Program-made: the position numbers and the translations under genes | Shown: piece after piece, positions 21,611 to 45,273 of the stretch | How positions within the stretch are numbered: position 1 is the stretch's first letter | Layout of the letters: every line of letters starts with the position of its first letter | Assembly (NCBI RefSeq): GCF_900103825.1 | Contig: NZ_FNIF01000003.1 | Span: 210,947 to 274,946, forward strand | Length of the DNA: 64,000 bases | Source: Paenibacillus sp. yr247 | GTDB taxonomy: Bacteria; Bacillota; Bacilli; Paenibacillales; NBRC-103111 | Direction of reading: 5' to 3' | The notes under the pieces: generated by a model | Told to the model about the DNA's origin: nothing | What the model saw: only the letters and a program-made list of their open reading frames with translations | The model's database searches: none

Positions 21611-21684
21611 GTCTCAGTAGCTCAGCTGGATAGAGCACACGCCTTCTAAGCGTGCGGTCGGGGGTTCGAATCCCTCCTGGGACG
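21611..21684 (+). tRNA. tRNA-Arg (anticodon TCT)
   Basis: Cloverleaf read directly. The acceptor arm GTCTCAG pairs with CTGGGAC. The D-arm contains AGCTCAGCTGGATAGAGC. The anticodon arm CACGC-CTTCTAA-GCGTG carries TCT, and the T-arm has GGGGTTCGAATCCC. The 3' CCA is not encoded. It has its own promoter and terminator and reads AGA codons. Confidence 0.97.
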
Positions 21685-21791: not shown

Positions 21792-21819
21792 CTTTTCAAT
21801 TACATATTTTTCGAATAAT

Positions 21820-21995
21820 TGAGGTGCCCTTGCATGCAGCAAGGGGTAACAGGGAATCAGGTGCAAATCCTGAGCGGTCCCGCCACTGTATTCGGGGAGC
21901 TTCTTTCTATCAATGTCACTTGATGAACAATCAGGGAAGGCTGAAAGAATACGACGATCCGAAAGCCAGGAGACCTACCTTCATTTATGCACCCA
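21820..21995 (+). promoter_or_regulatory. cobalamin riboswitch 1 of metE
   Basis: Contains the conserved B12-box core: GGGAA, GGTGCAAATCC, GCGGTCCCGCCACTGT, then AGCCAGGAGACCTACC. Closing stem GGTGC (21823-21827) with GCACC (21989-21993). Followed about 80 bp later by an intrinsic terminator. When adenosylcobalamin is bound, metE (the B12-free enzyme) is expected to be switched off. Confidence 0.93.
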
Positions 21996-22076
21996 GAAAC
22001 CTTCGCGGAAAGGAGCGGTGTACGTTAAGTCTTTCGACATTTAGCTTTTGTTTGTCGTTTATTCGAACGTACCCAC

Positions 22077-22106: not shown

Positions 22107-22257
22107 TATTCAGATTACTATGTATGAAGAAGGGAAATCTTTGTTCATTAATCAACATCATCATAAAATCGGGCTGCCCAAAACGTTATCACAAAAAAAC
22201 TTTGCATAATTATAATATATCATGTATATTTATTCAAATTAAAGAATTGCATATTGT

Positions 22258-22440
22258 GGGAATAGGTTCTCTGGTCCGTCAAGTAATAACCAGAGCTTAA
22301 AAGGGAAGTTCGGTGCAATACCGACGCGGTCCCGCCACTGTAACAGAGGAATCTACGCTATTACTGCCACTGATCGGAAGATTGGGAAGGCCAGCGTTTG
22401 ATGATGATTCTGGAGCCAGGAAACCTGCCTATTCTGACAG
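22258..22440 (+). promoter_or_regulatory. cobalamin riboswitch 2 of metE
   Basis: A second complete cobalamin aptamer. It has GGGAA, CGGTGCAATACCG, GCGGTCCCGCCACTGTAA and, at the 3' side, AGCCAGGAAACCTGCC. The closing stem is AATAGG (22261-22266) with CCTATT (22428-22433). It is diverged in sequence from riboswitch 1 outside the core, so it is not a very recent duplicate. Confidence 0.93.
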
Positions 22441-22470
22441 CACTGCTTTACCTACGGGAGATAGGGAGGT

Positions 22471-36673: not shown

Positions 36674-36682
36674 GTGCGGTCT
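36626..36682 (-). terminator. terminator of the nitrate operon
   Basis: Minus strand AGACCGCAC..AGCTTAGTT-(13 nt)-AACTAAGCT..GTGCGGTCT followed by TTTTT, directly at the nasC stop codon. The hairpin is shared with the 3' end of the helicase pseudogene. Confidence 0.85.
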
Positions 36683-38786
36683 ACACACGTTCCACTTTAA
36701 CTGCACAAATTTTAAACTCGGGCATCCGACTCGTTGGATCCAGCGCATCATTCGTTAATAAATTGATCGAATGCTCATCGCCCCAATGAAAGGGTACAAA
36801 TACAGTACGAGGCTGAATGCCTTCCGTCACTTTGACTGCGAAGATTAAGGATCCACGACGGCTTGTAATACGGATCTTGTTATCCAGACCCAGACCGATT
36901 CGCTTAGCGAGCCAAGGATGAATCTCGGCTACGGGAACGGGAGCCTTCTTATTCAATGCTTTCGTTCGACGTGTTTGTACGCCGCTTAAATAATGATTCG
37001 CAAGTCGCCCTGTTGTTAGCACAAAAGGATAATCCGAATCGATTGGTTCTGCCGGCATTTTCGGCTTAATACCAAACAATCTAGCTTTGCCATCTGGGTG
37101 ATGAAACCGATCCCCGAATAACTGCGGCGTTCCTGGGTGATCAGGAGCTGGACAAGGCCAGAATATGCCTTTCTCCTCTTGAAGTCTTTGGTATGTAATG
37201 CCGCTGTAGTCGGCTTTCCCTCCGGCCGTAGCAGCCGCTAGTTCGCGAAACACTCCTTCAATACCTGCATATTGAAAATAGGCGCCACGCCCCAACGCTT
37301 CCGCTAGCTGACATATAATTTGGTAGTCAAGTTTACTGTTCCCCGGCAGCTCCATCGCTTTCTGCCGGTGGAACACACGACCTTCCAGATTGGTCATCGT
37401 GCCTTCCGCTTCAGCAAAAGAAGACCCTGGTAACAAATAGTGGGCATAACGTGCCGTTTCAGTTTCGAACATGTCAACGACAACAAGCAATTCCAGCTTT
37501 TGCAGCGCCCGCTCTACCATTCGGTTATTCGGGCTGGATACAAGTGGATTCGATCCAAGGACGATTAGAGCCTTGATTTCGCCTTGATCTACCTTTTGCA
37601 GCAGCTCATAGGCGGAAACTCCTTTGCCGGGCAGGTCACTCGGATCGATTCCCCATACCTTGGCAACATGCTCACGAGCAGCCGGATCTTCAATTAAACG
37701 GTAGCCTGGAAGTTGGTCCGCCTTTTGTCCATGCTCGCGTCCGCCTTGACCGTTGGCTTGGCCGGTTACTGCACCGTAGCCGCAGCCTTTGCGCCCTATT
37801 TTACCGGTGACCAATGCCAAATTAATATAATTCAGTGTGTTCTCTACACCGTTCACTTGCTGTTCCAAGCCGCGTGCTGTAAGCACAATCCCTGTCTCCG
37901 CCTTAGCGAATCCACGAGCAATGGTACGAATAACAGCTTCCAGAACACCGGTTAGCTCCTCCACTCTGGCTGGCGTGAAAGGCTGAACCGTTTCCTTCAA
38001 CTGCTCGAAACCAACCGTACGTTCTCGAATGAAACGATCATTGAAGAGCTTCTCCTCCACCATGACATGCAGGAGTCCGTTTATAAACACGGAGTCGAAT
38101 CCCGGTTGTATACGCACATGGATATCGGCTGCCTTCGAGGTCATCGTATTCCGCGGATCGATCGTAATGATCACAGCGCCTTTTTTCTTCGCTTCGAGTA
38201 AATAAGGCATCATTGTCGGCTGGCATTCAGCAATATTCGTACCTGCGAGAATAATATATTTAGCATTCGGTATTTCCGTTAAAGGCATCGTCATCCCGCG
38301 ATCGATTCCGAATGCTTGATTACTGGCTGCCGCCGCTGAAGACATACAGTATCGGCCATTGTAATCAATAAATTTAGACCTCAGCGCTACACGAGTGAAC
38401 TTTCCAAGCAAGTAACAAACTTCATTAGTTAATGATCCGCCACCGTACACACCAATTGTATCAGGACCATACTCAGCTTGCAGGCCTTGGATACGCTGAG
38501 CAATGTCATCAAACGCGTGATTCCATGTTACGGATTGCCACCGACTCGGTTCACCCTCTGCCCTGGCCAAGGGCTCGAGAATCCGATCAGAATGAAGCAC
38601 ATGATCCAGTGCGTTCAATCCTTTCTGACAGAGACGGCTAGTCGCTACAGGAAAATTCGGACTTGGTTTAATCGTGAGACCTGACGTCTTCTCACCCGGA
38701 ATAATCTCCAGTCCGCACTGCATGCTGCAGAAGCAACAATGGGAGGAGGGTTGTTCTGTAGGCAATGTTAGTATTGGTGATTTCAA
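36681..38786 (-). CDS. nasC: assimilatory nitrate reductase, molybdopterin subunit
   Basis: 701 residues. The N-terminal [4Fe-4S] ligands are C17, C20, C24 and C53 (C-x2-C-x3-C-x28-C). The bis-MGD oxidoreductase body follows (GVYGGGSLTNEVCYLLGKF, SNPLVSSPNN) and a dinucleotide-binding tail domain from about 590 (TTGRLANHYLSG). It reduces nitrate to nitrite in the cytoplasm. The start is a TTG with GGGGGTGGG 5 bp upstream. Fourth gene after the transporter, nirB and nirD. A NasB-like flavoprotein donor gene is not seen, so the electron donor is unclear. Confidence 0.93.
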   Translation of the reverse strand: MKSPILTLPTEQPSSHCCFCSMQCGLEIIPGEKTSGLTIKPSPNFPVATSRLCQKGLNALDHVLHSDRILEPLARAEGEPSRWQSVTWNHAFDDIAQRIQGLQAEYGPDTIGVYGGGSLTNEVCYLLGKFTRVALRSKFIDYNGRYCMSSAAAASNQAFGIDRGMTMPLTEIPNAKYIILAGTNIAECQPTMMPYLLEAKKKGAVIITIDPRNTMTSKAADIHVRIQPGFDSVFINGLLHVMVEEKLFNDRFIRERTVGFEQLKETVQPFTPARVEELTGVLEAVIRTIARGFAKAETGIVLTARGLEQQVNGVENTLNYINLALVTGKIGRKGCGYGAVTGQANGQGGREHGQKADQLPGYRLIEDPAAREHVAKVWGIDPSDLPGKGVSAYELLQKVDQGEIKALIVLGSNPLVSSPNNRMVERALQKLELLVVVDMFETETARYAHYLLPGSSFAEAEGTMTNLEGRVFHRQKAMELPGNSKLDYQIICQLAEALGRGAYFQYAGIEGVFRELAAATAGGKADYSGITYQRLQEEKGIFWPCPAPDHPGTPQLFGDRFHHPDGKARLFGIKPKMPAEPIDSDYPFVLTTGRLANHYLSGVQTRRTKALNKKAPVPVAEIHPWLAKRIGLGLDNKIRITSRRGSLIFAVKVTEGIQPRTVFVPFHWGDEHSINLLTNDALDPTSRMPEFKICAVKVERV

Positions 38787-38852: not shown

Positions 38853-39203
38853 TTAGCAGGCCATTTCTTTTTTTATCGGAAATCCAATAAACACCGTTCC
38901 TTCATGAATTTTCGTCGAATACGTTTGTACGCAGCCTGTATCCGGAGCCTGAACAAGACCGGAAGGAAGGTGAATCTTGCGATCATGCATCGGACAGAAG
39001 ATATGATCATCACATACAATTCCTTCAGCAAGGACGCCCTCTTTATGGGGACAACGGTTCTGAATCGCTTGAAGCTTGCCGCTTTTCAACTTGAAAAGTG
39101 CAACCTCTTCCCCTTGATATCGAATTGTTTTCCCTGTGTTTACGGCTAAATCCTCATAAGAAACGGCCTGCACCCAAATCATATGCTCCTCTTGTGTTTT
39201 CAT
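38853..39203 (-). CDS. nirD: nitrite reductase small subunit (Rieske-type NirD)
   Basis: 116 residues. All four Rieske ligands are present: C51 and H53 in CPHKEG, C70 and H73 in CPMHDRK. It should therefore bind a [2Fe-2S] cluster, unlike enterobacterial NirD that lost them. Partner of NirB in ammonia-forming nitrite reduction. AGGAGGAG precedes the ATG; 25 bp after nirB. Confidence 0.93.
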   Translation of the reverse strand: MKTQEEHMIWVQAVSYEDLAVNTGKTIRYQGEEVALFKLKSGKLQAIQNRCPHKEGVLAEGIVCDDHIFCPMHDRKIHLPSGLVQAPDTGCVQTYSTKIHEGTVFIGFPIKKEMAC

Positions 39204-39228: not shown

Positions 39229-41652
39229 TTAATTAAGCTCTACGACTTCATAAAGGTCACGCTGAATTTTTTTGCTATCAATCGCTTGTTTCCAAGGGTC
39301 CTTCGTCACAGAAAGCGCAAGATCCATCCGAGCGCACAATTGTTTGCGTTCTTCTTCATTTTCTACCACTTCACGAATATGCCCGATACCAAGTCGGTAC
39401 ACCCACTCACTTGTGCGCTCACCATATTTACCTGTTTCGCGGTAGTACTGCAAGTAAGCTTCTGTATATTCGATAATTTCTTGCTCTGTTTTGACGGTAG
39501 TCAAGAGGTCGCCAACGCGTACCTTCACACCGCCATTTCCTCCGGCATACAGCTCCCAACCGCCATCTACCGATACAACCCCTAAGTCTTTAATGCCTGA
39601 TTCCGCACAATTTCGAGGACATCCCGATACAGCTAGCTTTACTTTGGCAGGTGTGTTCAAGCGTTCAAAACGTTTCTCCAGCTCGATCCCTACGCCCATC
39701 GCATCACCTGTACCAAATCGGCAGAAGGTTTCACCCACGCACGTTTTTACAGTACGCAAGGCTTTACCGTAAGCATAACCAGAAGGCATATCCAGGGCTT
39801 CCCACATCGCTGTAAGATCTTCTTTCTTCACACCTAGCAAGTCGAGACGCTGTCCACCAGTAAACTTCACTGTGGGGACATTGAACTGTTCAGCTACTTC
39901 TGCAATCCTCTTCAACTCAGCAGGATTCGTTACACCGCCATAAATCCGTGGAACAACCGAATACGTACCGTCCTTCTGGATATTGGCATGCATACGTTCA
40001 TTTACAAAACGTGAGGTACTATCGTCTTTATAAGTTTCAGGGCTAACCATACCCAAATAATAGTTGAGGGCAGGACGGCATTTCGAGCATCCTTCTTCAT
40101 TTTTCCAACCAAGCACGTTCATCACTTCACGAACATGAGATAAACCTTTTTCACGAATCGCTGTAACAACCTCATCCCGTGTATGGTCTGTACAAGCGCA
40201 AATCGACTCTTTAGCTGCGTTCTTATCATAGGAAGAACCTAATGTAAAAGCCAACAAATCACTTACCAGTGGCTTACAACCACCGCAAGAGCGGGAAGCC
40301 GTCGTACAATTTTTGACTTCGTCGACTGTGGTTAATCCTTGATCCTTAATTGCTGAACAGATGGTTCCTTTGGTGACGCCGTTACAACCGCAAATAATCG
40401 CATCGTTTTTCATTTCAGCAACACCCGATGCCGCTCCACTGCCACCCGAGGCATCCGTCAATATCGCCGTTTTCCCCATGCCGCTAATATCGGTTTCTTC
40501 CCGAATCATTTGCATTAGCCTCGTACCATCCGACGTATCTCCGAAGAGAACCGCACCGATGATCTTATTGTCTTTAATCACTACTTTCTTATAGACGCCG
40601 GTGAATTCATCATGAATGCGAATGGCTTTCGTTCCTTCCGCATCGCCGAACTGTCCACCTGAGAATACATCTACACCGGATACTTTAAGCTTCGTATAAA
40701 GGATGGATCCTTCATAGGGTCCCGTCTCCAAGCCCGCCAAATGTTTAGCAAGTACAGCACCTTGCTCGTAAAGAGGCGCTACCAGTCCGTATGCGATACC
40801 TCGATGCATGGCGCATTCTCCAACCGCATAGACATTCGCAATACTCGTTTGCAAATAATCATTCACGATGATGCCCGGATTGCACTCAACGCCAGCCTTC
40901 TTCGCGAGCTCTACATTTGGACGAATACCTACGGCCATCACGATCAGATCTGCCTCAGCAACGGTACCATCTTTGAATTTCAAGCCAGTCACCCGCTTGT
41001 CACCTATGATTTCTGCTGATTGCTTCTCGAGCAAGAAGTTGATACCTTGCTCTTCAAGCGCTGCTTGCAACATTTTGGAAGCCGTTCGATCAAGCTGACG
41101 CTCCATAATGGTATCCACGATATGAACAACATCCACTTTCATACCTAAGTTAAGGAAGCCCCTTGCTGCTTCTAATCCAAGCAAGCCCCCACCAATAACG
41201 ATCGCTTTTTTATACTTTTTAGCGGACTCGATCATGATCTCGCAATCACGAATGGTCCGGTAAGCCATAACCCCTTCTTTATCAGCTCCAGGCATTGGAA
41301 TCATAAAGGGGTTAGACCCTGTGGCCAAAATTAATTTATCATAGGAAACCGTTAGCCCTTTATCGCTCGTTACCGTTTGCGCGGTCGTATCAATGTCAGT
41401 GACCGTCTGGTTTATATGAAGGGTGATGTGGTTGTTCGCATACCACTCATAGGGATGAATGACGATATCCTCTACTTTGGAATCTCCGGCAAGTACGTAG
41501 GACAATAAGATTCTGTTGTAGTTCGGATGCGGTTCACTGCCAAAAATCGTAACCTCATATTTATCAGGTGTAAGTTTAAGTAAATGTTCAACTGCGTTAA
41601 CGCCCGCCATTCCGTTTCCGACCAGGACCAACTTCTCTTTTTTGTATGTCAT
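39229..41652 (-). CDS. nirB: NAD(P)H-dependent nitrite reductase large subunit
   Basis: 807 residues. An FAD/NAD(P) reductase domain (LVLVGNGMAGVNAVEHLL; AIVIGGGLLGLEAARG) comes first. A BFD-type [2Fe-2S] domain follows (CGCNGVTKGTICSAI ... SCGGC), then a second Cys-rich copy (CACTDHTRDEVV ... GCSKC). Last is the sulfite/nitrite reductase domain with siroheme-[4Fe-4S] ligands in CVGETFCRFG and SGCPRNCAES. It reduces nitrite to ammonium in the cytoplasm. The frame is open to 41871, but AAAGGA lies 8 bp before the ATG at 41652. Siroheme can come from the cobA/sirC functions at 1.3-4.5 kb. Confidence 0.95.
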   Translation of the reverse strand: MTYKKEKLVLVGNGMAGVNAVEHLLKLTPDKYEVTIFGSEPHPNYNRILLSYVLAGDSKVEDIVIHPYEWYANNHITLHINQTVTDIDTTAQTVTSDKGLTVSYDKLILATGSNPFMIPMPGADKEGVMAYRTIRDCEIMIESAKKYKKAIVIGGGLLGLEAARGFLNLGMKVDVVHIVDTIMERQLDRTASKMLQAALEEQGINFLLEKQSAEIIGDKRVTGLKFKDGTVAEADLIVMAVGIRPNVELAKKAGVECNPGIIVNDYLQTSIANVYAVGECAMHRGIAYGLVAPLYEQGAVLAKHLAGLETGPYEGSILYTKLKVSGVDVFSGGQFGDAEGTKAIRIHDEFTGVYKKVVIKDNKIIGAVLFGDTSDGTRLMQMIREETDISGMGKTAILTDASGGSGAASGVAEMKNDAIICGCNGVTKGTICSAIKDQGLTTVDEVKNCTTASRSCGGCKPLVSDLLAFTLGSSYDKNAAKESICACTDHTRDEVVTAIREKGLSHVREVMNVLGWKNEEGCSKCRPALNYYLGMVSPETYKDDSTSRFVNERMHANIQKDGTYSVVPRIYGGVTNPAELKRIAEVAEQFNVPTVKFTGGQRLDLLGVKKEDLTAMWEALDMPSGYAYGKALRTVKTCVGETFCRFGTGDAMGVGIELEKRFERLNTPAKVKLAVSGCPRNCAESGIKDLGVVSVDGGWELYAGGNGGVKVRVGDLLTTVKTEQEIIEYTEAYLQYYRETGKYGERTSEWVYRLGIGHIREVVENEEERKQLCARMDLALSVTKDPWKQAIDSKKIQRDLYEVVELN

Positions 41653-41761
41653 TGTGATCATCCTTTCCATCCGTTTCCTATCAAGAAGTATTGATTTTGG
41701 TAAAAGTGGGCCATTCGGGAACTGACGTCCCCAAATGACAAAATTGGGATATGGAGCTTGA

Positions 41762-41838
41762 GTAGTTCCAATTGAACTACCAAAGACGGTTAGTCGTAAA
41801 CGTCTTTGCCCATGCAGCCTGAACACGCAAGCTGCATG
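41762..41838 (-). other. three consecutive hairpins between the nitrate transporter gene and nirB
   Basis: Back-to-back stems: 41811-41818/41831-41838 (CATGCAGC/GCTGCATG), 41781-41788/41801-41808 (CAAAGACG/CGTCTTTG) and 41762-41768/41774-41780 (GTAGTTC/GAACTAC). None is followed by a U-run, so they are not plain terminators. They could be mRNA-processing or stability elements inside the operon. The 246-bp gap also leaves room for a promoter, but I see none that is convincing. Confidence 0.5.
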
Positions 41839-41898
41839 AGCAAAAGCTTTTACGCTTATGCAACTGACCATTCACGATCAGCCGCCCCAGCCTATTAC

Positions 41899-43140
41899 TT
41901 AGGCATGCACACTATCCAAAGATGCCGGTGTTGCCTTCACTTTACCGCCTTCGCCAATCCAACTGCGCTTCCATTGTCCTTGTACAACGGCAATCAACAA
42001 GAGACATATAATCGCAATACCACTCAAGATTAGAAAGCCTGGTGTGAAAGAACCTGTCGCTAGTTTCAAATTGCCGAGAATTTTGGGCAAGAAATAACCG
42101 CCCAAACCGCCTGCTGCTCCAACAATTCCCGTTATAACACCAATTTCCGTCTTGAAACGCTGCGGAACGAGTTGGAAAACCGATCCATTCCCCATACCGA
42201 AAGCCATCATGGCGATGAAGAGCATGACTGTTGTCATGGTAAGAGAAGGAAGTGTAGAGATTCCAGCCATCATCAAACCGACAACGCCATAAAGTACCAT
42301 CAGCATCCGAATACCGCCTATTTTATCAGCAAGCCAGCCGCCTACCGGGCGGAAGAAGCTTCCACCGATTACGCATAAGGTAGTAAAATCAGCGGCACGA
42401 ACCGGTGATAAACCGTATTGGGTATTGAAGAAAATGGTTAAATAAGATGCCATACCAACGAAACCGCCGAACGTCACACTATATAAAATGCAGAACAACC
42501 AGGAATCCTTCTGTTTCAATACTTTGCCATATTCAGCAATTGTTTTCGGTGCCGGTTTATTGGGACTATCCTTCGCCAACACGCTAAAGATGATAAGCGT
42601 TAGCGCAATTGGAATCATCGCGATCCCAAAAACAACATGCCAATCACCATAATGTTGAGCAATTCTGTTTGCAAACAAAGTAGCGAAGATCGTACCGCTA
42701 TTCCCCGCTCCTGCAATCCCCATCGCTAATCCTTGATACTGCGGCGGGTACCAGCTGCTGGCGAGTGGCAGTGCTGCTGCAAAACTTGCTCCCGCAATAC
42801 CGAGCATCAATGCCACGAAGTACATATCACCCATCGTGTTAGCGAACTGCCAGCCCCAGAATAAAGGGATTAAGGTTAACGTCAGTCCGATTTGTCCAGT
42901 AAGCTTAGGACCTATCTTATCTGTCAAAACACCTAGTACCAGTCTTAGCACCGCTCCCCCCAAGGTAGGTAAAGCAACGAGATTCGCCTTTTCTGCAGCG
43001 TTCAAATGAAAATCATTAGCCAGAATAACCGCTAATGGTCCAAGAAGAACCCAAACCATGAAGCTCATGTCAAAATACAAGAATGAACTGAACAATGACC
43101 CTTTGTGTCCTACTTGCATAAAGCTTTTCCGATCAACCAT
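41899..43140 (-). CDS. nitrate/nitrite transporter, MFS (NarK/NasA family)
   Basis: 413 residues with about 12 hydrophobic segments. Conserved positions of the nitrate porter family are recognisable: FMVWVLLGPLAVIL in the first segment, GAGNSGTIFATLFANRIA, and the glycine-rich GIVGAAGGLGGYFLP in the second half. It imports nitrate across the cell membrane. AAAGGAGAGGG precedes the ATG. First gene of the nitrate operon, behind an attenuator leader. Confidence 0.93.
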   Translation of the reverse strand: MVDRKSFMQVGHKGSLFSSFLYFDMSFMVWVLLGPLAVILANDFHLNAAEKANLVALPTLGGAVLRLVLGVLTDKIGPKLTGQIGLTLTLIPLFWGWQFANTMGDMYFVALMLGIAGASFAAALPLASSWYPPQYQGLAMGIAGAGNSGTIFATLFANRIAQHYGDWHVVFGIAMIPIALTLIIFSVLAKDSPNKPAPKTIAEYGKVLKQKDSWLFCILYSVTFGGFVGMASYLTIFFNTQYGLSPVRAADFTTLCVIGGSFFRPVGGWLADKIGGIRMLMVLYGVVGLMMAGISTLPSLTMTTVMLFIAMMAFGMGNGSVFQLVPQRFKTEIGVITGIVGAAGGLGGYFLPKILGNLKLATGSFTPGFLILSGIAIICLLLIAVVQGQWKRSWIGEGGKVKATPASLDSVHA

Positions 43141-43204
43141 GCTTTCCCTCTCCTTTTATGAGGCTTTCCGCCTTCTTTTTTTCCTACCCAAACGTGATTC
43201 TTTG

Positions 43205-43255
43205 ACAGAAAAGGCCGACAAACATACCCTTACACGCGCGGGATGTTTATCGGCC
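43205..43255 (-). terminator. leader terminator (attenuator) of the nitrate operon
   Basis: Minus strand GGCCGATAAACAT pairs with ATGTTTGTCGGCC (13 pairs, one wobble), the loop itself holding CCC/GGG, then TTTTCTGT. It lies inside the leader, 65 bp before the transporter start, so transcription must be allowed through it for expression. Confidence 0.85.
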
Positions 43256-43354
43256 TCTTTGCCACCGCTGCCACATCATCGTGAACAGCATGTTAGATGA
43301 TATTCGGTAAATAGAACATAAATAGCCCATCCGGTTACGTATTTGTAAGGGGAT

Positions 43355-43392
43355 AGGCGCCATTGCCTTCGTCAGAGGCACATCATTGTGCC
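43355..43392 (-). promoter_or_regulatory. ANTAR-type double hexaloop RNA element
   Basis: Hairpin 1: GGCAC-AAUGAU-GUGCC. Linker of 8 nt. Hairpin 2: AGGC-AAUGGC-GCCU. Both have six-base loops with A at position 1 and G at position 4, the published recognition pattern of ANTAR-domain antiterminators. Hairpin 1 starts about 7 nt after the predicted transcription start. The 3' arm of hairpin 2 can alternatively pair as GCCTATCC (43358-43351) with GGATGGGC (43332-43325), so the two states exclude each other. Confidence 0.75.
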
Positions 43393-43405
43393 GATTTCTA
43401 ATTTG

Positions 43406-43434
43406 ATTATAGTATGACATTTCGTGCATGTCAA
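43406..43434 (-). promoter_or_regulatory. sigma-A promoter of the nitrate operon
   Basis: Minus strand TTGACA, 17 bp, TATAAT: perfect consensus. The spacer carries the inverted repeat TGACAT-GCACGAA-ATGTCA, which includes part of the -35, a possible repressor site. Confidence 0.85.
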
Positions 43435-43445
43435 TAAACATAACA
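43429..43445. promoter_or_regulatory. GlnR/TnrA-type nitrogen control box
   Basis: TGTCAATAAACATAACA fits TGTNA-N7-TNACA exactly. It overlaps the -35 of the nitrate operon promoter and faces the divergent ANTAR gene, so GlnR bound here could block or influence both. Confidence 0.7.
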
Positions 43446-43494
43446 CAAAAAAATCGCATATGAGATTCCCTATAACATATCGACAAAATTTAAA

Positions 43495-43522
43495 TTCATA
43501 TGCTATAGTAATGCCGTATAAT
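43495..43522 (+). promoter_or_regulatory. possible promoter of the ANTAR gene
   Basis: TTCATA, 16 bp, TATAAT, about 70 bp before the start codon. Good -10, mediocre -35. The rest of the 454-bp gap between the transporter gene and this gene holds the leader elements listed separately. Confidence 0.5.
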
Positions 43523-43594
43523 AAATCATTTCACCAAATAAACCTTACATAAAGTTCCCATTAGGTGAGAAGTATCCACGATGGAGGTATTCAA

Positions 43595-44245
43595 ATGTTG
43601 CAATCATTTATACTGATCGACGAGTTTAAACAAACTCGCTCAGCTACCTCCACCTCGTCATCGACTACCGAGCTGAATTTTTCTGATAATAGAAAGGAAT
43701 CCTTACCTGAAAAGATGCTGAAGGATTTGGGATTTCGTATATATGCAGCGTCTAGTGTAAAAGAAATTTCATTTATGATCCCCAAGGTCGATGCTGTATT
43801 ATTATCAGTAGGCCCTGATCAAGTGGAGACATGGCGTTCGCGTGTGCTTACTCATCGAAGCCTTCCTCTCTTCTGGTGGTGTGACGCTCACACTTTTCCT
43901 TCAAATGAATGTAGAATAGATGCAGGTATTGATGGTTTAATTGGATCAATGATGAGTCCTCTTGAAATTCACTGTGCTCTGCTCCTTGGCATGAATCATT
44001 ATTTCCAACGAACCGAGTGGCAGCAAGAGCGCGAACAACTTCTCTCCAAACTTGAGGAGCGCAAATGGGTCGATCAGGCAAAGCGAATCTTATGTGAAAT
44101 TAAAGGTATCTCCGAAGCGGAGGCTTACGATTTTTTGCGTAAACAAGCCATGAATGAACGTAAACGTATGGTAGACGTCGCTACCTCCATCGTCAAGGTG
44201 TATCAAATACTACAGGATCAGAACCAAGGAGGGCGCAAACGATGA
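43595..44245 (+). CDS. ANTAR-domain RNA-binding antiterminator (NasT-like)
   Basis: 216 residues. The C-terminal ANTAR domain (about 147-203) shows the conserved L-x2-LEERKWVDQAKRIL and EAEAYDFLRKQAMNERKRMVDVA. The N-terminal part (1-130) resembles a degenerate receiver domain (FILIDE, VDAVLLSVGP, LFWWCDA). It lacks a clear phospho-acceptor aspartate set and carries a Ser/Thr-rich insert near 14-25. GGAGG precedes the ATG at 43595. Divergent from the nitrate operon, whose leader has a matching double-hexaloop target, so it probably allows readthrough of the attenuator. Its stop overlaps the next gene by 4 bp. Confidence 0.88.
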   Translation: MLQSFILIDEFKQTRSATSTSSSTTELNFSDNRKESLPEKMLKDLGFRIYAASSVKEISFMIPKVDAVLLSVGPDQVETWRSRVLTHRSLPLFWWCDAHTFPSNECRIDAGIDGLIGSMMSPLEIHCALLLGMNHYFQRTEWQQEREQLLSKLEERKWVDQAKRILCEIKGISEAEAYDFLRKQAMNERKRMVDVATSIVKVYQILQDQNQGGRKR

Positions 44246-45273
44246 TATCTTTATTAAAAGAAGTAGGCCGCGGAAAACGCGGAGCAAGAGACCTTTCATA
44301 TGAAGAAGCTTCCCAAGCAGCGGAACTCATCCTCACAGGAGGCGCTACACAAGCACAAATGGGTGCTTTTCTCGTTGCGGAACGAATCAAAATGGAATCC
44401 CCCGATGAGATTAAGGCCTTCATCCATGCCTTGCGTCAGCGGATCACTTCCTATCCAATCCCCGGCAGCCTGGATTGCGCAGGACCATATGACGGACGCT
44501 CCCGTACGTTCATCGCGACCTTGCCGACCGCGTTCGTTCTCGCGGCCTGCGGACTTCCCACCACGCTGCATGGCAGCCCCAGCATGCCGCCCAAATGGGG
44601 GATCACGCTGACAGATGTGCTGGCCGCGCTCGGTGTGCCCGCACTATCCGCGTCGCGCGAAGCCCTTGTTTCCGCTGCGGCGCGAACAGGCTTCCTGTTC
44701 ACGCCTACGGAAAGCTGGTGCGCACCGCTCGGCGAGCTGCGCGAGCTGCGCATGGAACTCGGCCTGCGGACCGTGTTCAACACAGCAGAGAAGCTGCTTC
44801 GTTTCACGGAAGCGCCATTCATGGCTGTCGGTGTGTTTCACGGCACTGTGTTCGAGAAAATTACCAATTTATTAATCGAATTGGGGGTGTCTCGCGGCAT
44901 CGTTGTGCAGGGCATGGAAGGCTCTGAAGATCTTTCCGTGGACAAGCGCACACGAACACACCTCATTCAAGAGGGCACCAGCGAATTATTCATAGTTGAT
45001 CCTGAGATTTACGAATTAATGGTAGAAGTGCCGGAAGTCGAATGGACTGCTCAACTGCAGGCAGAAACTGCTCTGTCCGTACTGCGTGGAGAAGCCGAAC
45101 TCCCCTACTTGAATATGGTATTACTCAACAGCGCAGTGCGTTTGTGGGTTTCCCAGAAAGCCGGATCCATTGAGGAAGGTATTTATTTGGCTCGACATGC
45201 GATTGAACAAGGGGCAGCCTTACAGAAATATACCGAATGGACAGAAGCAATTAAACCAGTATCGGCTACTTAA
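44242..45273 (+). CDS. TrpD2/YbiB-like glycosyltransferase-fold protein
   Basis: 343 residues related to anthranilate phosphoribosyltransferase. The N-terminal helical domain (RDLSYEEASQAAELILTGGATQAQMGAFLVAERIKMES) is followed by the catalytic-type fold (GPYDGRSRTFIATLP, FNTAEKLLRF, VQGMEGSEDL). The usual TrpD diphosphate loop GTGGD is absent, being replaced by CAGPYDGR. This points to the TrpD2 (YbiB) branch, known in Escherichia coli as a nucleic-acid-binding protein, not to tryptophan synthesis. ATGA overlap with the ANTAR gene indicates a coupled pair. The middle (44450-44850) is notably G/C-rich. Confidence 0.82.
   Translation: MISLLKEVGRGKRGARDLSYEEASQAAELILTGGATQAQMGAFLVAERIKMESPDEIKAFIHALRQRITSYPIPGSLDCAGPYDGRSRTFIATLPTAFVLAACGLPTTLHGSPSMPPKWGITLTDVLAALGVPALSASREALVSAAARTGFLFTPTESWCAPLGELRELRMELGLRTVFNTAEKLLRFTEAPFMAVGVFHGTVFEKITNLLIELGVSRGIVVQGMEGSEDLSVDKRTRTHLIQEGTSELFIVDPEIYELMVEVPEVEWTAQLQAETALSVLRGEAELPYLNMVLLNSAVRLWVSQKAGSIEEGIYLARHAIEQGAALQKYTEWTEAIKPVSAT

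Follow-up and report, generated by a model that had tools for sequence, protein, structure and literature searches.

Several ANTAR systems that regulate by antitermination have been described. NasR of Klebsiella acts at the nasF leader, which resembles the leader described here in that a double hexaloop and a terminator precede genes for nitrate assimilation (PMC3369931), and NasR carries its own nitrate sensor, a NIT domain. AmiC-AmiR of Pseudomonas controls amidase, unlike the nitrate system considered here. EutV-EutW acts on the T-loops of eut genes, and the layout in which hairpin 2 overlaps the terminator has been described for EutV (PMC3369931). Ramesh et al. 2012 (PMC3369931) also reported ANTAR motif matches before nitrate/nitrite transporters and nitrite reductase. 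The word "Paenibacillus" is absent from the main text of that paper, and the present leader may be in its supplementary tables. A literature search over titles and abstract openings, mostly from open journals, gave nothing on an ANTAR protein at Paenibacillus nitrate genes among the matches listed.

The window, a 64,000-nucleotide stretch of the genome of Paenibacillus sp. yr247, contains a nitrate assimilation operon on its minus strand. The operon comprises a narK-type nitrate/nitrite transporter (41899..43140; NCBIfam TIGR00886, 4e-88, 296 bits, under the cut-off of 311.7), nirB for the nitrite reductase large subunit (39229..41808; TIGR02374, above cut-off), nirD for the small subunit (38853..39203; TIGR02378, above cut-off) and the catalytic subunit of an assimilatory nitrate reductase (36681..38786; NF047855, 972 bits, under the cut-off of 1100). 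The nirB frame opens at 41871, and its true start is not certain. A probable ribosome-binding region for narK, AAAAGGAGAGGG, is at 43146..43157 (minus strand). Divergent from the operon is a plus-strand gene for an ANTAR antiterminator (43595..44245), and its stop overlaps (ATGA) a TrpD2-like gene on the same strand (44242..45273). The initial annotation had proposed that the ANTAR protein and a matching double-hexaloop attenuator control these nitrate genes, and this is supported by sequence and conserved over many genera. We think it likely, at roughly 85%, that the leader acts as an attenuator with two gates, both read by the divergent ANTAR protein, so that the operon would be controlled by nitrate-responsive serial antitermination under nitrogen-status control. 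Elsewhere in the window, a tRNA (21611-21684) precedes a tandem pair of cobalamin riboswitches on the plus strand (21805-21996 and 22247-22446; 121.1 and 119.3 bits).

Two sets of related loci were compared. The best 80 of 260 loci found via the TrpD2-like protein were named, and these span Paenibacillus, Cohnella, Brevibacillus, Aneurinibacillus, Halalkalibacter and others. The ANTAR gene adjoins the TrpD2-like gene in 75 of the 80, and 73 of these 75 have a divergent narK or nirB. Many of these 73 loci, found through the TrpD2-like protein, are close relatives, and 22 of them are the same as genus loci of the relatives search. In the remaining two of the 75 (L086 and L097), the divergent genes were read by sequence inspection as a nitrate-type ABC transporter. 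A second set of 40 loci was picked by the ANTAR protein among the matches listed; it was chosen to span genera and is not a random draw. Eight of the 40 coincide with the 73, and the other 32 are absent from the named set. All 40 have the hexaloop together with divergent nar/nir genes. The ANTAR protein itself was found in 46 of 60 relatives, and a profile of it matches at least 162 of 246 genomes of the order.

The nitrate operon has a perfect sigma-A promoter, as the initial annotation stated: TTGACA-17-TATAAT (43406..43434, minus strand) agrees with the consensus at 12 of 12 positions. The transcription start is a predicted one. An element missed earlier, a GlnR/TnrA-type box TGTTATGTTTATTGACA (43429..43445, no strand assigned), matches the consensus TGTNA-N7-TNACA (PMC3412718) exactly, and the -35 hexamer sits inside its right half. 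Exact boxes occur in 67 of the 73 related intergenic regions and in 14 of 730 shuffles; with at most one mismatch, the counts are 71 of 73 and 174 of 730. The box overlaps a -35 in 63 of the 73 regions, an overlap count made without a shuffle control. Because an exact and conserved box covers the -35, control by nitrogen status through GlnR or TnrA is a candidate mechanism. This suggests a division of labor in which GlnR or TnrA would set the promoter by nitrogen status and the ANTAR protein would add a pathway signal.

The first part of the leader contains two hairpins, both supported by covariance model R1 and by folding. P1 (43377..43392, minus strand; GGCAC-AAUGAU-GUGCC) and P2 (43355..43368, minus strand; AGGC-AAUGGC-GCCU) are 8 nt apart and have the hexaloops AAUGAU and AAUGGC, each with A at position 1 (A1) and G at position 4 (G4). 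The initial annotation had described these hairpins, and we found them where it placed them. A1 and G4 are present in the P1 loop of all 28 genus leaders and in the P2 loop of all 27 that possess P2. The 3' arm of P2 is also the 5' end of T1, a putative first terminator seen in alignment and folding (43315..43358, minus strand), with an 8-bp stem (GCCUAUCC/GGAUGGGC), an inner 4-bp stem and the tail UAUUUAUGUU; P2 and T1 are mutually exclusive. We read the 8-bp hairpin as a terminator because a U-rich tail follows it here and in many relatives, and since T1 takes its 5' arm from hairpin 2, P1-P2 would be the antiterminator of T1. In minimum-energy folds of the growing RNA, P2 is present at 54-70 nt and is displaced by the longer hairpin T1 at 86 nt.

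The initial annotation had noticed the pairing of 43358-43351 with 43332-43325 as an alternative to hairpin 2. That pairing is real and displaces P2; what changes is its role, which is best read as that of the first terminator, and the switching order proposed with it gives way to two classical ANTAR modules in series. The proposed order had GGATG, freed from the pairing, invade CATCC in the downstream terminator (T2, below). We rejected this 5-bp match because the required G occurs only in the window among the 27 genus leaders with T1: the other 26 read GGATAGGC, and the window alone reads GGATGGGC. One observation on this region counts against the ANTAR reading: the linker between P1 and P2 is about 10 nt longer in four relatives, L014-L017, than in others, although antitermination by EutV was abolished by a 20-nt extension of its linker (PMC8934654).

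A second module, missed by the initial annotation, is a pair of hexaloops that overlaps T2. P3 (43267..43289, minus strand) has the hexaloop GAUGAU (G1, G4) and one bulge in its stem, and P4 (43251..43264, minus strand) has the hexaloop AAAGAG (A1, G4); both rest on the genus alignment and R1. The 3' arm of P4 falls within the 5' arm of T2 (43205..43256, minus strand), a second, strong terminator with a 14-bp outer helix and a U tract (-29.0 kcal/mol). T2 is the intrinsic terminator that had been placed ahead of the transporter gene, and its presence there is confirmed. In folds of the growing RNA, P3 and P4 form and T2 then displaces P4. All 28 genus leaders have G4 in both loops; position 1 of the P3 loop is G in 24, including the window, and A in 4, and position 1 of the P4 loop is A in 25 and G in 3. 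T2 has 94.4% of cells paired across the 28 leaders, with three pairs changed on both sides. A simple terminator scan of the minus strand, with a loop limit of 8 nt, detected neither T1 nor T2.

Both modules show the ANTAR layout. The 3' arms of P2 and P4 fall within the 5' arms of T1 and T2, so that in each module hairpin 2 overlaps a predicted terminator with which it is mutually exclusive. P1 and P2 both have 6-nt loops with A1 and G4, and the P3-P4 module shares this feature in part, P3 having G1. Position 1 of the EutV targets mattered for binding, with A1 being important (PMC3369931), and since P3 is without A1 in 24 of 28 leaders, the P3-P4 module may bind the ANTAR protein weakly. The best reading of the predicted structures is that the leader contains two ANTAR attenuators in series. 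More than one attenuator per unit is not unheard of, because Desulfotomaculum acetoxidans has 13 attenuation systems in six transcription units (PMC3369931).

Searches with the whole leader agree with this placement. The 216-nt leader (43420 down to 43205) has a folding z of -5.27, and none of 200 shuffles is as stable. R1 matches the leader at 43392-43355 (44.6 bits) and at 43285-43251 (34.9 bits); the model was built from the window's own P1-P2 plus relatives of both sites, so the two matches are not independent of it. These are the only sites with E < 0.01 in the whole-genome search, and the next has E = 2.13, with 150 of 2272 first-look candidates scored. Rfam gave no match in the nitrate leader at the gathering score.

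The predicted structures are conserved within the genus. Alignment A2 holds 28 genus leaders, 27 of which have T1 (L027 is without P2 and T1). Part of the P1 loop belongs to the pattern with which the leaders were cut out; all 28 genus loci passed it, L030, from another genus, failed, and L029 was omitted from A2. The antiterminated structure has 96.9% of cells paired and 4 pairs changed on both sides, and the terminated structure has 96.5% and 7; none of 500 shuffles reaches either result, and in slid controls the pairing drops to 21-57%. Outside the genus-level set, we also examined 51 loci (those of L071-L128, minus L096, with ANTAR and divergent nar/nir genes), choosing loops by a GGC/GCC stem alone and leaving the loop letters free. 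A1 is present in 55 of 55 of these loops and G4 in 54 of 55, and positions 3 and 6 are variable. The best hairpin just upstream of the stem-selected loop has A1 in 48 cases, G1 in 4 and C1 in 1, and G4 in 50 (n = 53). In the 40 protein-picked loci, stem-selected loops have A1 in 43 of 46 and G4 in 42 of 46, chance stems included.

The initial annotation had also asked whether the loops persist in relatives, and they do: each of the 73 related loci that have divergent narK/nirB contains at least one P2-type hairpin (GGC-[AG]NNGNN-GCC), in addition to the 40 of 40 protein-picked loci. A module finder that looks for P1, P2 and an overlapping terminator succeeds in 65 of the 73 intergenic regions, in 1 of 730 shuffles and in none of the 73 reverse complements. 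In a cross-genus set of 40 modules there are 44 double-change cells versus 18.0 in shuffles, and 4 pairs show double changes, a count not above shuffles (480/500); the double-change count is weak support, because the modules were picked for pairing stems. It could be argued, given that the genome search with R1 scored 150 of 2272 candidate sites, that the two terminators reflect ordinary attenuation or fold by chance, and that the ANTAR protein regulates something else. We regard this as very improbable, in view of loops that are conserved without having been selected, stems that change on both sides within the genus, and linkage in 40 of 40 loci.

A different question is whether both modules work. 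T2 with P3-P4 could be the operative attenuator while P1-P2-T1 serves in recruitment or pausing, or the roles could be exchanged. Many relatives have the T1 stem followed by UUUUUAUG or similar, with the tail UUUUUAU; the tail is UAUUUAU in the window, in whose subgroup the U tract is interrupted. This interruption speaks for a single working module, as does the lack of A1 in the P3 loop. In Paenibacillus whitsoniae (L027/L068), P2 and T1 are lost and P1, P3, P4 and T2 retained, and 3 loci (L071, L072 and L114) among the 51 beyond the genus-level set have two P2-type loops with A or G at position 1 and G4. On the other hand, P2 and T1 are the least variable part of the leader: T1 has 100% of cells paired in the 27 genus leaders that possess it, and 7 of its 8 pairs are invariant across these sequences. 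G4 is likewise kept in the P2 and P4 loops of every genus leader that has them. We consider a single working module rather unlikely; serial action of the two remains our preferred reading. Independently of this question, the near invariance of T1 (43358-43325; A2 columns 59-93), which includes the inner UUAC-N6-GUAA hairpin, exceeds what pairing needs.

Other loci outside the genus mostly have one module. The second P2-type loop of L081 carries A4, L034 and L170 also hold two P2-type loops, and L048 seemingly has two terminators. From these patterns, tandem use is a variant that one group conserves and that turns up sporadically outside it. We also observed, in L035, L037 and L038 (Chengkuizengella and kin), a third A1/G4 hexaloop hairpin after the terminator, near the start of the first gene, and L038 has an additional dual motif at 427-469.

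The divergent gene does encode an ANTAR protein, as had been stated: the 216-residue product scores 66.9 bits against Pfam ANTAR (curated cut-off 27.3), and a domain search found ANTAR alone. In the AF2 model (pLDDT 87.4) the best fold matches are EutV and AmiR, a ranking among the matches listed in searches that group many receiver domains closely. EutV is phosphorylated, whereas the window's protein is without Asp at the aligned residue: its VLLSVGP, with Ser, aligns with VIMDVKMP, with Asp, of the EutV-like protein from this genome, and the other four aligned rows have A, P, H and H. As modeled, the protein combines a receiver fold without the phospho-Asp, a long helix and ANTAR, which is the AmiR type. 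Because the N-terminal receiver is a pseudo-receiver, activity is probably set by binding of a ligand or partner, as in AmiR, and not by phosphorylation. Besides this ANTAR gene, the genome has one other, which is linked to eut genes. The second (L033:6243-8293) is EutV-like with an intact phospho-Asp motif and is beside an EutW-like kinase in an apparent ethanolamine cluster.

The signal could be something other than nitrate, such as general nitrogen status or nitrite. ANTAR targets elsewhere precede many nitrogen genes (PMC3369931). A whole-genome search at E <= 0.01 found no NIT domain, so the protein is not of the NIT-ANTAR type of NasR, and there is no PF13379 (NMT1_2) match on the window's contig. 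The GlnR/TnrA box on the promoter, however, probably accounts for nitrogen status, and narK, nirB or their kin are divergent in 73 of 75 named and 40 of 40 ANTAR-picked loci. We consider a signal other than nitrate unlikely, if well worth keeping in mind, and favor nitrate. A second alternative is that a remote NasS-like protein sequesters the ANTAR protein, as NasS does with NasT in Paracoccus (PMC3795266). The genome encodes four PF13379 proteins that could serve, but all four genes are on contigs other than the window's, and members of this common family occur in 12 of 14 control genomes; this alternative seems to us distinctly improbable.

A more novel and less likely possibility is that the TrpD2-like protein is the signalling partner, a phosphoribosyltransferase (PRT) fold without the PRPP motif that would bind a nitrogen signal and control the antiterminator by direct contact. 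Its gene, overlapping the ANTAR gene, had been overlooked by the initial annotation. The protein has the anthranilate-PRT fold of TrpD2 and is without the PRPP motif GTGGD, CAGPYDGR aligning with CGTGGDGA of the genome's own trpD. TrpD2 is defined with <20% identity to anthranilate PRTs (PMC9835598); the protein is 28% identical to the genome's own trpD, which exceeds this limit, and we therefore call it TrpD2-like rather than count it within TrpD2. By sequence it is nearer anthranilate PRTs (9.5e-34) than YbiB (1.2e-15), and YbiB was not named among the 50 matches listed. Its best NCBIfam model is NF005635, which we take to be a cyanobacterial family, at 185 against a cut-off of 287, thus below it. 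Nine of 14 control genomes, including Synechococcus elongatus, match NF005635, one above the cut-off.

The two genes are frequently neighbors. The TrpD2-like gene adjoins ANTAR in 34 of the 40 ANTAR-picked loci (32 by filter plus L140 and L157, which the filter missed and inspection added), or in 26 of 32 without the 8 coinciding loci. Among 15 loci at the family and order levels, 12 have an intact adjacent copy, 1 has the gene in fragments and 2 are without it. An obligatory TrpD2-like partner is not supported, as 6 of the 40 loci (L164 and L166-L170) are without the gene. The ANTAR-linked kind was not found in the six partnerless genomes (G133, G218, G165, G187, G190 and G080; G218 is only 70% complete). 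Five of these have one match, at 151-179 bits (the trpD range), and G190 also has one at 316 bits; the ANTAR-linked kind scores 511-574 bits in four other genomes, and G042 and G050 resemble the partnerless genomes (157-159 bits). The TrpD2-like gene occurs without ANTAR in 5 of the 80 named loci (L069, L083, L085, L089 and L093). L069, from Paenibacillus sp. SYP-B3998 (taken as the same as G017, also without ANTAR, since the coordinates agree), has no ANTAR gene, no R1 match at E <= 1 and a narK that is a short fragment, and it keeps the TrpD2-like gene. In its gene content, L069 is a natural loss of the system. A TrpD2-like paralogue outside the window (L178:4863-7415, G000:C48) has the same strand as obg and follows it at a distance of 171 bases; in 14 of 15 relatives' regions obg and such a paralogue are within about 1.2 kb of each other and keep this order, and the fifteenth, L190, stops at a contig end.

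We propose the following order of events. RNA polymerase would start at a promoter that GlnR or TnrA could control according to nitrogen status. When the ANTAR protein is not active, P2 would be brief and then displaced by T1, and transcripts that pass T1 would meet the stronger T2, which would likewise displace P4. When the protein is active, a dimer would hold P1-P2 and then P3-P4 as hexaloop hairpins. The held hexaloops would block both terminators and allow transcription of narK-nirBD-nasC. With one gate behind another, repression should multiply and induction should become sharper. The window's genus, with its two serial attenuators, is a naturally occurring system in which this effect on the response can be studied.

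If the TrpD2-like protein is the partner, it would fill the role that NasS and AmiC hold elsewhere. The same principle could explain CnaT, which is an anthranilate-PRT-like protein, and with the obg-adjacent paralogue, which recalls YbiB-ObgE, partner proteins of this kind would form a general class. CnaT regulates nitrate genes in cyanobacteria (PMC9430850). Its putative likeness to the window's protein is through NF005635, scored below cut-off, and a search of a plasmid collection on the CnaT question gave matches all below 60% identity, 28-30% in the 30 listed of 92. YbiB, the TrpD2 of E. coli, binds nucleic acid and ObgE (PMC10123104) and, like the window's protein, has the anthranilate-PRT fold without the PRPP motif. 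A TrpD2-like protein with no assigned job is here tied to a defined regulator, making the role of such proteins, perhaps including CnaT, directly testable.

The closest parallel is NasS-NasT of Paracoccus and Azotobacter, which shares with the window an ANTAR protein with a receiver-like N-terminal domain, a nitrate/nitrite operon and leader hairpins (PMC3795266). The locus studied here, from the Bacillota, differs in having tandem attenuators and in the gene that overlaps the ANTAR gene, which is TrpD2-like; no NasS-like gene is on the window's contig, the four PF13379 genes of the genome being on other contigs. The locus provides a conserved Gram-positive system for nitrate antitermination. 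The ANTAR class and the principle by which it acts are known; the tandem layout, the AmiR-type pseudo-receiver as the sensor half and the TrpD2-like gene appear to be new.
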